DNA from: Chthonomonas calidirosea T49
GTDB lineage: Bacteria; Armatimonadota; Chthonomonadetes; Chthonomonadales; Chthonomonadaceae
Assembly: GCF_000427095.1 (NCBI RefSeq)
Contig: NC_021487.1
Location: 2,146,633-2,191,232 of the forward strand
Length of the DNA: 44,600 nt
Direction: 5' to 3'
Under the pieces are notes generated by a model. The model did no database searches. It was given only the letters and a program-made list of their open reading frames with translations, and was not told the origin of the DNA. A program made the position numbers and the translations under genes. Numbering within the stretch: the stretch's first letter is position 1; the number at the start of each line of letters is the position of its first letter. Below are positions 38,798-44,600 of the stretch, one piece after another.

Positions 38798-38870
<73 letters not shown>

Positions 38871-41574: not shown

Positions 41575-42483
41575 ATGCATCCAGAAGATTTTCAGCCTAC
41601 CTCGCTCAACGTCCTTCGAGCTTGGCTACGCGAGCACCGCATTCATCCTAGTAAGCGGTTAGGGCAGAACTTTCTTTTCGATCGCAACACGTTGCAGCGC
41701 ATTCTCCTCGTCGCCGATCTGCGGCCCGAGGAGCCGGTGCTCGAAATCGGCGCCGGTTTTGGGGCATTGACCCAAGCCCTAGCCGAACAGGGCGCAAGGG
41801 TGACCGCCATCGAGGTCGATTCACGGCTTAAGCCACCTCTACAGGCCATTGCTAGCCGCTATCCCACCGTACGCCTTGTTTTTGCCGATTTTCTTGAACT
41901 CGATCTTGATGTTCTCCTCGATATGGCTTTCGGCGTCGGCAGTATCGGCTCGGCGGTCTCCAATATTCCTTATTCCATCTCCACGCCCCTCGTAGAAAGG
42001 CTGCTCTCTCACAAAAACCGTTTCCGCCAAATGATCCTGCTGGTACAGGAGGAGTTTGCCCGGCGGATTGTTGCCAAGCCGGGCAGTAAGGATTACGGAT
42101 CGCTCTCCGTATTTGTACAGTATCATGCAACGGCTGAGATCGCCGGCGTCGTGCCGCGCACGGTCTTCTTTCCGCAACCGGAGGTTCATTCCGCGATTCT
42201 AAAGATCGTGCCGGTCTCGCCAAGCACCCAGCCAGTGGAAAATGAGCGGCGCTTTTTTTCGATCGTGCACGCCGCTTTCGGACAACGTCGTAAAACCCTT
42301 CTGAAGGCTCTCCTCGCTGCCGCTTCACAGATCGGGCTTCCAAACGATCGTGCACGTGTGGCTGCCTGGCTTTCTGCGGCCAAGATCGCACCGGAGAGAC
42401 GCGGCGAAACGCTTTCCCTGGAAGAGTTTGCGCGTCTCGCCAACACCCCTCCGGAGCCGCTTAACTCTCCTGAAGCTCTTTGA
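41575..42483 (+). CDS. rsmA: 16S rRNA (adenine1518/1519-N6)-dimethyltransferase
   Basis: RsmA/KsgA dimethylates two adjacent adenines near the 3' end of 16S rRNA during small-subunit assembly. The 302-residue protein has the family start KRLGQNFLFDRNTLQRIL and the SAM-binding motif VLEIGAGFGALTQALAEQGA. AIEVDSRLKPPLQ and the catalytic VSNIPYSISTPLVERLL (NIPY) follow, with FFPQPEVHSAILKIVP and GQRRKTLLKAL after that. The ATG at 41575 lacks a clear Shine-Dalgarno and follows a hairpin. Its final 23 bp overlap the end of the convergent thrS gene. Confidence 0.95.
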   Translation: MHPEDFQPTSLNVLRAWLREHRIHPSKRLGQNFLFDRNTLQRILLVADLRPEEPVLEIGAGFGALTQALAEQGARVTAIEVDSRLKPPLQAIASRYPTVRLVFADFLELDLDVLLDMAFGVGSIGSAVSNIPYSISTPLVERLLSHKNRFRQMILLVQEEFARRIVAKPGSKDYGSLSVFVQYHATAEIAGVVPRTVFFPQPEVHSAILKIVPVSPSTQPVENERRFFSIVHAAFGQRRKTLLKALLAAASQIGLPNDRARVAAWLSAAKIAPERRGETLSLEEFARLANTPPEPLNSPEAL

Positions 42484-44209
42484 GGTAGGCAATGGTAGCT
42501 TCGATGGAGCGCGCGCCGAGATCGCCCTCCCCATGCTTGCGGATGCTCACCGTTTGGGCTGCCACATCTCTGTCGCCGCAGATAAGCATAATGGGCACCT
42601 TCTGCACCTCGGCATCGCGAATGCGCTTGCCCATCTTCTCGTTACGGCTGTCTATCTCCACCCGGAAGCCCGCTTCCTGAAGGTAGGCCCGAACGCGCTG
42701 TGCATACTCCAAATGCCTATCGGCAATGGGGATAATGGTTACTTGCTGCGGCGCCAGCCAGAAGGGGAAGGCACCCGCATAGTGCTCCAGCAGCAGCCCC
42801 ACCATACGCTCTAAGGAGCCGAACGGCGCGCGATGGATCATGATAGGCCGATGGCGCTGGCCATCCTCCCCCACATACTCTAGCTCGAAGCGCTCTGGAA
42901 GGTTGTAATCTACCTGCACCGTGCCCATCTGCCATTCACGACGTAAGGCATCGCGCACCATGAGGTCGAGTTTCGGGCCGTAGAAAGCGGCGTCACCCTC
43001 CGCGATCTCATAGTCCATGCCGAGGTCTTGTACCGCCTCGATAATGGCGCGTTGGGCTGCCTCCCAATTCTCATCGGAGCCGATATACTTGTCGTCTTTG
43101 GGGTCGCGCACGCCGATTCGCACGCGATACTCTTCTAAGCCTAGGCGTCGCAGCGTGTAAAGCATAAGGTCTACGACACCTTTAAACTCTTCCTTGAGCT
43201 GCTCCGGGGTTACGAAGAGATGGCTATCGTCTTGCGTAAACCCACGCACGCGCAACAGGCCGGTTAGCTCCCCGCTCTGTTCATAGCGATAGACGGTTCC
43301 GAACTCGGCCAAGCGAAGAGGGAGATCGCGATAGGAGCGCAACTCAGAGGCGTAGATCATGATATGATGGGGACAGTTCATCGGTTTGAGAACATAGGTC
43401 TCGTCCTCCTCCTCTCCGCGCATCAGCGGGAACATTTTTGAGTGATAGGTTTGCAGATGGCCGCTACGTTCGTATAGGCGTGCGTTTCCAATATGAGGGG
43501 TTACTACCGGCAAATAGCCGCGACGCGTCTGCTCAGCCTTCATGAACTCCATGAGCGTTTCCCGAAGAACCGCGCCCTTCGGAAGCCATAGCGGCAACCC
43601 AGGCCCTACCTCATGCGAAAACATAAAGAGGCCCAGCTCTCTGCCTAAAACGCGGTGATCGCGTTTCTTTGCCTCTTCTAATCGCTGTAGGTAGTCCTTG
43701 AGCTCCTCTTCGGTCGGCCAAATCGTGCCGTAGATGCGGGTCAGCATCTTATTCTTTTCGTTGCCGCGCCAGTAAGCCCCCGCTGTATGTAGGAGCTTGA
43801 AGTGTTTTAATTTCCCCGTCGATTCCACGTGAGGCCCGCGACAGAGATCTACCCAATCGCCCTGACGGTAGAAGGAGATCTCTTCGTTTTCTGGGATATC
43901 GCGGATCAGCTCCAGCTTATAGGGTTGATCGAGCCGTTTTTCCAGTTCTATCGCCTCCTCGCGGGAAAGCACCTCGCGTTGAATAGGAAGATCACGTGCG
44001 GCGATCTCCCGCATTTTTTCCTCGATCCGCTCCAGATCCTCTTCTCGAATAGGGCACGGCAGCTCAAAATCGTAGTAGAAGCCATCCTCAATAGGCGGGC
44101 CAATGGCATATTTCACGCCTGGAAACAGCTCTCCCACAGCTTGAGCCATGAGATGAGCTGCGCTATGCCGTAACCGATAAAGATCGTCATATTTCGTCTC
44201 GTCCTTCAT
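42461..44209 (-). CDS. thrS: Threonyl-tRNA synthetase, lacking the TGS domain
   Basis: Class II synthetase that charges tRNA-Thr. The 582-residue protein starts directly with the editing (N2/SAD) domain (LRHSAAHLMAQAVGELFPG, then DLCRGPHVESTGKLKHFKLL). It lacks the N-terminal TGS domain of about 60 residues present in E. coli ThrRS (642). The catalytic domain contains the zinc-binding Cys in MNCPHHIMIY, His in FTQDDSHLF, and His in IMIHRAPFGSLERMV. The anticodon-binding domain occupies about 480-582 (VTIIPIADRHLEYAQRVRAY). I place the start at ATG 44209, eight bases after GGAGG; GTG 44215 is too close to that site. Expression is probably controlled by the leader described separately. Confidence 0.95.
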   Translation of the reverse strand: MKDETKYDDLYRLRHSAAHLMAQAVGELFPGVKYAIGPPIEDGFYYDFELPCPIREEDLERIEEKMREIAARDLPIQREVLSREEAIELEKRLDQPYKLELIRDIPENEEISFYRQGDWVDLCRGPHVESTGKLKHFKLLHTAGAYWRGNEKNKMLTRIYGTIWPTEEELKDYLQRLEEAKKRDHRVLGRELGLFMFSHEVGPGLPLWLPKGAVLRETLMEFMKAEQTRRGYLPVVTPHIGNARLYERSGHLQTYHSKMFPLMRGEEEDETYVLKPMNCPHHIMIYASELRSYRDLPLRLAEFGTVYRYEQSGELTGLLRVRGFTQDDSHLFVTPEQLKEEFKGVVDLMLYTLRRLGLEEYRVRIGVRDPKDDKYIGSDENWEAAQRAIIEAVQDLGMDYEIAEGDAAFYGPKLDLMVRDALRREWQMGTVQVDYNLPERFELEYVGEDGQRHRPIMIHRAPFGSLERMVGLLLEHYAGAFPFWLAPQQVTIIPIADRHLEYAQRVRAYLQEAGFRVEIDSRNEKMGKRIRDAEVQKVPIMLICGDRDVAAQTVSIRKHGEGDLGARSIEATIAYLKELQES

Positions 44210-44248: not shown

Positions 44249-44280
44249 AAAAAACCGCTTCCGAAAACTTCCGGAAGCGG
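44249..44280 (-). terminator. Intrinsic terminator inside the thrS leader
   Basis: On the minus strand CCGCTTCCG (44280-44272) pairs with CGGAAGCGG (44263-44255) around an 8-base loop, and TTTTTT (44254-44249) follows. It lies 40 bp upstream of the thrS start and downstream of the leader ORF, so it can stop transcription before thrS. Confidence 0.85.
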
Positions 44281-44352
44281 CGCGTTTGCTATCGAGTAGA
44301 GCCTTCCTAACAGGCAAAGCCCTCCCTTCGGCGACGCAAACCCGCGCCGCCG
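44277..44352 (-). promoter_or_regulatory. Antiterminator and competing stems of the thrS leader
   Basis: The segment at 44350-44336 (GCGGCGCGGGTTTGC) can pair with 44289-44277 (GCAAACGCGCCGC): 13 bp with a GG bulge, which captures the first four bases of the terminator stem. The same 5' segment can instead fold locally as CGGCGGCGC/GCGTCGCCG (44352-44344 with 44337-44329), which would free the terminator. A further pairing, 44383-44374 with 44321-44312, covers early leader codons. The leader ORF overlaps all 5' strands. Confidence 0.6.
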
Positions 44353-44393
44353 TGCTTAGTGCTAACAAGTTCTGGCTTCGCCTCCGAAATCAT
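44307..44393 (-). CDS. Putative 28-residue leader peptide upstream of thrS
   Basis: A short open frame, ATG 44393 to TAG 44307, begins MISEAKPELVSTKH and ends GGAGLRRRREGFAC. GGGAGAAG (44405-44398) is a good Shine-Dalgarno. It starts about 25 nt after the predicted transcription start and ends inside a hairpin loop just before the antiterminator 3' strand. It contains only one Thr codon (residue 12), but four consecutive Arg codons (20-23). Position between promoter and terminator, and overlap with alternative stems, suggest that its translation governs thrS attenuation. Confidence 0.6.
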   Translation of the reverse strand: MISEAKPELVSTKHGGAGLRRRREGFAC

Positions 44394-44424
44394 CAAACTT
44401 CTCCCAGTAAAACCCTACGCTGAA

Positions 44425-44430
44425 ATTATA
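44425..44430 (-). promoter_or_regulatory. -10 element of the thrS promoter
   Basis: Perfect TATAAT on the minus strand, about 216 bp before the thrS start and 32 bp before the leader ATG. The -35 region is a T tract and is not a clear hexamer. Confidence 0.65.
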
Positions 44431-44535: not shown

Positions 44536-44556
44536 AAAAACGCGGCAGGATGCCGC
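44536..44556 (-). terminator. Terminator for a gene entering from the right edge
   Basis: On the minus strand GCGGCA-TCC-TGCCGC is followed by G and TTTTT. It would end a minus-strand transcript coming from beyond 44600. Stop codons in two frames lie just upstream (TGA at 44570-44568, TAG at 44562-44560), and the third frame stops at 44536-44534, but too little sequence remains to identify the gene. Confidence 0.5.
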
Positions 44557-44600
44557 CATCTAACCCATCAGGGAGGAATTGACACGACAAGATGTTGAAT

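Follow-up and report, generated by a model that had tools for sequence, protein, structure and literature searches.

A probable threonine-responsive leader-peptide attenuator ahead of thrS in Chthonomonas calidirosea and related Armatimonadota

In the current study, we analyzed a 44,600-nt stretch of Chthonomonas calidirosea DNA (the window), which belongs to a genome assembled as a single contig of 3.44 Mb (G000). Its minus strand carries thrS, preceded by a short leader. The leader elements below, from the TATAAT box through the Shine-Dalgarno-like site, the open reading frame (ORF) and the pairings to the terminator, were read directly on that strand; each line also names what the assignment draws on.

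44425..44430, minus strand: TATAAT, -10 box of the predicted thrS promoter, with a weak -35 (sequence)
44398..44405, minus strand: Shine-Dalgarno-like GGGAGAAG of the leader ORF (sequence)
44307..44393, minus strand: leader ORF of 28 codons, MISEAKPELVSTKHGGAGLRRRREGFAC, start ATG at 44393-44391 and stop TAG at 44309-44307 (a homologous ORF occupies this position in 26 of the 29 order genomes)
44358..44384, minus strand: conserved core EAKPELVST, in relatives EASxx[S/L]VxT (codon columns and a six-frame peptide search of 291 genomes)
44358..44360, minus strand: Thr12 codon ACT, proposed sensing codon (Thr in 26/26 leaders; ribosome-roadblock comparison)
44344..44352, minus strand: arm B, forming the 5' side of the in-ORF hairpin and shared in part with the antiterminator 5' arm (covariation)
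44329..44337, minus strand: arm C, 3' arm of the in-ORF hairpin, encoding the first Arg codons (covariation)
44336..44350, minus strand: antiterminator 5' arm GCGGCGCGggTTTGC, that is, B extended into the hairpin loop (own-genome versus swapped pairing)
44277..44289, minus strand: arm D, antiterminator 3' arm GCAAACGCGCCGC (overlaps the terminator stem by five bases)
44249..44281, minus strand: intrinsic terminator with T-run TTTTTT at 44254-44249 (a terminator was also found here independently)
42461..44209, minus strand: thrS, threonyl-tRNA synthetase (ThrRS), the putatively regulated gene (Pfam tRNA-synt_2b, HGTP_anticodon and tRNA_SAD)

The local B:C hairpin (44352-44344 with 44337-44329) has 9 bp, one of them G-U, and the antiterminator (44350-44336 with 44289-44277) pairs over 13 bp around a 2-nt bulge. 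With 12 pairs and a loop of 4, the terminator stem (44281-44254) reaches -19.9 kcal/mol. Because five terminator bases (44281-44277) also belong to the antiterminator, the two structures are mutually exclusive. The leader as a whole folds better than its shuffled versions (z = -4.25; 0/200 shuffles as good). The promoter of the window combines a good -10 with a poor -35 (8/12 matches, equaled by 62/200 shuffles); in 14 of the 25 testable genomes, a promoter with 10 to 12 of 12 matches lies upstream of the leader ORF, which agrees with the transcription start upstream of the leader assumed in the preliminary description. The conserved element ends about 25 to 30 nt upstream of the thrS Shine-Dalgarno sequence. 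In the window ThrRS the editing domain lies near the N terminus, and Pfam detected no TGS domain; in some other families of the phylum the N terminus of ThrRS is longer. Elsewhere in the neighborhood, a second terminator-like hairpin with a T-run lies at 44542-44558 on the minus strand, on the upstream side of the thrS promoter; just outside the window, in or close to a masked stretch, is the start of a flagellin-like reading frame that points away from thrS; and a tRNA gene occupies 38798-38870 on the plus strand (Rfam, 74.7 bits).

thrS was located in 39 of 41 genomes, and its upstream DNA was read without imposing any pattern. A leader ORF precedes it in 26 of the 29 same-order genomes whose upstream DNA could be read, and both competing pairings are kept at these leaders, as are terminators in most; in G010 and two genomes of family f2, the leader ORF is absent upstream of thrS. 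The leader-peptide attenuation proposed for thrS in the preliminary description is supported by the relatives, where ORF and pairings are conserved. Terminators generally follow the leader stop codon by some 20 to 50 nt. Three sister genomes (G022, G023 and G026; leaders L029, L150 and L028) have no convincing intrinsic terminator before thrS; they retain the leader core and the B:D pairing. T-runs are poor in several further genomes of family f3.

The element appears to be specific to thrS: pattern, peptide and covariance-model searches of 291 genomes of the phylum returned none upstream of any other gene. The core pattern matched in 19 of the 291, 18 times at thrS and once within a gene, and in a six-frame peptide search with a consensus-like leader the best ten matches were thrS leaders, that of the window included. 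The covariance model recovered 25 thrS leaders at E values of 1e-8 to 7e-18; these values are not independent evidence, since most of the leaders had trained the model, but the emptiness elsewhere is independent. No Rfam family matched the thrS leader, low-scoring E-value matches being sub-threshold chance, and a search of genome contigs with the exact DNA pattern of arm B was uninformative. The remaining candidates were discarded on inspection. The core-pattern match outside the order (G222) lies inside a gene, a second exact core match in the window genome (C1:609654) is antisense in a hydrolase-like gene, the next two covariance-model matches (G115 and G154) fall inside unrelated reading frames, and the three weak peptide matches that were opened (G248, G093 and G130) are not thrS leaders.

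An ungapped core, E-A-[S]-x-x-[S/L]-V-x-T, is carried by 24 of the 26 leaders, a count that rests partly on anchors that contained the core together with the first two bases, AC, of the Thr codon, although all upstream regions were inspected. Searches that left out the Thr codon, and others with the covariance model, revealed no further thrS leader carrying another codon in its place. Thr is the sole residue invariant in all 26 leaders. It is encoded by ACT in 15, ACC in 6, ACA in 3 and ACG in 2, whereas ACT accounts for 9% of Thr codons in these thrS genes; in ten genomes a second Thr adjoins the invariant one. Where the core has changed, Thr codons are still found: G007 has lost the EAS core and has ACT ACC ACA (Thr-Thr-Thr) at the same place, directly before arm B, and the diverged peptide of G008 contains two Thr codons. 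The window itself, with the prefix EAKPELV, shows a partial loss of the conserved EASxx[S/L]V. Substitutions are conservative in frame (mean BLOSUM62 of 1.05, versus -0.87 and -0.06 in the other frames), and the frame stays open for at least 11 codons beyond the core in all 26 leaders. Certain third positions of the core never vary, namely that of GAG for Glu and that of TCG, which encodes Ser in 36 of 36 cases at two positions, against a 25% share in thrS. Selection on the peptide alone is an insufficient explanation, and the leader core may in addition serve a function of the mRNA or depend on how particular codons are decoded. We also weighed whether an internal Shine-Dalgarno-like GGAGG, located at the Glu codon, might cause a pause, but rejected this because the G preceding GAGG is unconserved.

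The B:C hairpin keeps one register relative to Thr across genomes. Its arms covary, with 85.6% of cells paired, a figure reached by 0 of 500 shuffles and approached by slid versions only as far as 61.7%. The sequence of B:D varies between genomes yet fits within each one: own-genome pairing averages -33.7 kcal/mol versus -26.9 kcal/mol when arms are swapped between genomes (0 of 20,000 permutations). In all 26 genomes B:D is better than the mean of shuffled D arms (mean z of -2.6), if modestly so in some; the antiterminator of the window is one that is modestly better (z of -2.0; 20/500). The mutually exclusive structures described earlier from the window thus hold up as three helices, of which B:C covaries and B:D is genome specific. 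At the level of sequence, the decisive support for these being real structures is comparative: the 26 leaders among 29 genomes, the B:C covariation and the genome-specific B:D pairing.

In sum, a coding-conserved ORF lies between promoter and gene and holds a cognate codon and mutually exclusive helices, which is what a leader-peptide attenuator looks like in sequence. We think it likely, with good confidence, that the thrS leader senses charged tRNA-Thr by way of ribosome-mediated transcription attenuation. The computation shows directly which parts exist, that they are conserved and mutually exclusive, and where the Thr codon lies with respect to the switch; from this we infer translation of the leader ORF, a ribosome waiting at Thr and the transcriptional outcome, which would unfold as follows. 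A ribosome would translate the short ORF while RNA polymerase transcribes the leader. With ample charged tRNA-Thr, it would pass the Thr codon and cover arm B or, alternatively, finish translation and leave B free to close the hairpin with C. In either case B would be unavailable, D would pair with the last arm (E), and the resulting terminator would stop transcription ahead of thrS. When charged tRNA-Thr is scarce, the ribosome would wait with the Thr codon in its A site, masking only the outer bases of B and weakening B:C more than B:D. B and the hairpin loop could then capture D during transcription, no terminator would form, and thrS would be made.

We examined this scheme with a thermodynamic roadblock model in which the ribosome is a masked stretch and energies are those at 37°C, although the organism of the window is presumably a thermophile. 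Across the 26 genomes, the mean antiterminator probability is about 0.6 to 0.7 as long as the A site has not reached Thr; at Thr it is 0.58 with 9 masked downstream bases and 0.33 with 12, and at codons +2 to +10 past Thr, a stretch that contains most of the Arg codons, it is near 0. While the A site is at Thr or earlier, formation of the antiterminator is possible in the majority of genomes. In a comparison of B:D energy with terminator energy, a mask of 10 to 12 nt puts the last permissive codon at Thr itself in 12 to 13 of the 26 genomes; a mask of 9 nt puts it at Thr or one codon later in 19 of 26. With the ribosome at Thr, B:C retains 60% of its energy and B:D 84%, so a wait there should favor B:D. 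For the window alone, the modeled antiterminator probability is only 0.06 to 0.28 with Thr in the A site, 0.65 to 0.70 with the A site two to three codons before Thr, and 0.01 without a ribosome. At equilibrium, with the whole terminator in the calculation, the terminator prevails in many genomes regardless of the ribosome; the switch must therefore be kinetic, the choice being made as the RNA emerges. A ribosome at the leader stop codon leaves the antiterminator unblocked in several genomes, and the OFF state would thus depend on B:C forming first. The preliminary description held that the direction of control could not be deduced. This now seems too pessimistic: because Thr sits at approximately the last position permitting read-through, slow decoding of Thr should turn thrS on, and the cell probably makes more ThrRS when charged threonine tRNA runs low.

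The conservation ahead of the Thr codon bears on a different reading, in which EASxx[S/L]V acts as a nascent peptide in the exit tunnel and stalls the ribosome at or near Thr upon encountering a ligand or translation inhibitor, with tRNA-Thr decoding secondary. Short distances between start codon and Thr, as seen here, resemble those of known arrest peptides. Moreover, residues over eight positions before Thr are conserved, which plain attenuators do not need, and conservation in frame exceeds that in the other frames. Nevertheless, G007 and G008 keep their Thr codons and helices without the motif, the invariant third positions of the core suggest a constraint at the nucleotide level instead, and the only residue that never varies is the very amino acid charged by the downstream synthetase. 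We therefore regard arrest of this kind as rather unlikely. One tentative possibility, to which we would give somewhat less than an even chance, is that EASxx[S/L]V serves charging-dependent attenuation itself, as a nascent-chain or mRNA module sensitizing the ribosome to a single Thr, which would then replace the runs of codons in classical attenuators, and that lineages without the module recover the sensitivity by multiplying their Thr codons; G007 (three Thr codons) and G008 (two) are the cases in point.

The Arg run at the end of the leader peptide had been put forward as a macrolide-like arrest motif, which would make the leader a sensor of macrolide-like drugs or of arginine. LRRRR occurs in the window and LRLR in three relatives, and Arg-Leu-Arg leaders are known among antibiotic-sensing upstream ORFs (PMC8632094). 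For the window by itself, the antiterminator does remain usable (0.67) when the A site holds the fourth Arg (+11) or Glu (+12), but a structure that is permissive there is opposed by the conservation: Arg is found at +11 in only 8 of 26 leaders, and an Arg-X-Arg at the position that would expose the ON state is not conserved among the 26. Stalls at +8 to +10 bring the antiterminator near 0 in the 26 genomes, one excepted (0.12). Arg at +8 (20/26) and +9 (18/26) falls on the CGY-C arm, which forms pairs with GGCG, so the Arg run is largely explained by the hairpin. Arg content varies and is low in G004, G005 and G007, and the gene downstream is thrS rather than a resistance gene. We accordingly consider an Arg-dependent arrest very improbable and have set that earlier suggestion aside. 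As for a structured RNA bound directly by ThrRS or another protein, with the reading frame incidental, the invariant third-position bases of the core would fit and E. coli ThrRS does autoregulate by binding its own leader (PMC2965389), but frame-specific conservative substitutions, synonymous wobble at Ala, Val and Thr, a frame open for at least 11 codons past the core in 26/26, the lack of an Rfam match and a ThrRS in which no TGS domain was found, against an operator of the E. coli type, leave this hardly any probability.

T-boxes, like the attenuator proposed here, sense tRNA charging upstream of synthetase and amino acid genes, but they bind the tRNA directly and without translation. As the preliminary description had noted, thrS has none: the T-box model (RF00230) gave no match there, and the same model finds one to four T-boxes elsewhere in each genome of the order. 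The window genome contains three, and the genes behind them were named by reading their translations. One (L196; G000:C1:1951050-1951320; 90 bits, slightly below the gathering score of 93) precedes a threonine-synthase-like gene, and the other two (L194 and L195) precede valS and ilvB (valyl-tRNA synthetase and acetolactate synthase). This genome would thus apparently sense threonine in two ways, through a T-box at the threonine-synthase gene and through a translating ribosome at thrS. We found no thrS leader peptide in the open literature that we searched, although a 2010 survey of synthetase attenuators by Lopatovskaya (cited in PMC4833913) was outside our coverage; leader attenuation of thrS, or in Armatimonadota, is apparently undescribed there, and we claim novelty provisionally. 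If our reading is correct, leader-peptide attenuation gains a phylum and a gene. The layout is unlike that of the textbook, in that the 5' arm of the in-ORF hairpin is also the antiterminator arm and the proposed sensing codon sits at its edge. In addition, the pairing of a conserved prefix with a single cognate codon makes it directly testable whether nascent-peptide or mRNA context tunes the report of tRNA charging.

Among known systems, thrL of the E. coli thrABC operon combines Thr codons in its leader peptide with alternative helices and a terminator, and the leaders of trpS, leuS and pheST carry stretches of the cognate codon. thrL has eight ACC codons (PMC1183508). It controls threonine synthesis and has many Thr and Ile codons, and informally we noticed no similarity between it and the thrS leader. 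Leader-peptide attenuation of synthetase genes through cognate codons, as proposed here, is shared with the His leader peptides of hisS and hisZ in Bacillus (PMC2965389), with the trpS and leuS attenuators of Streptomyces and with the pheST leader (PMC1262725); however, the hisS leader has a stretch of cognate codons (PMC2965389), whereas the thrS leader has a conserved noncognate motif and one codon. The nearest published relative in kind is uORFC-8-2, found before cysS in Rhodobacterales (PMC8632094). It too is a candidate upstream-ORF attenuator confined to a single order and placed before a synthetase gene, with conserved cognate codons, two stems and a U-run terminator. The two differ in gene and phylum and in where the cognate codons lie: uORFC-8-2 has two tandem Cys codons inside its first stem, while the thrS leader places one invariant Thr just before the stem and precedes it with a conserved eight-residue motif.
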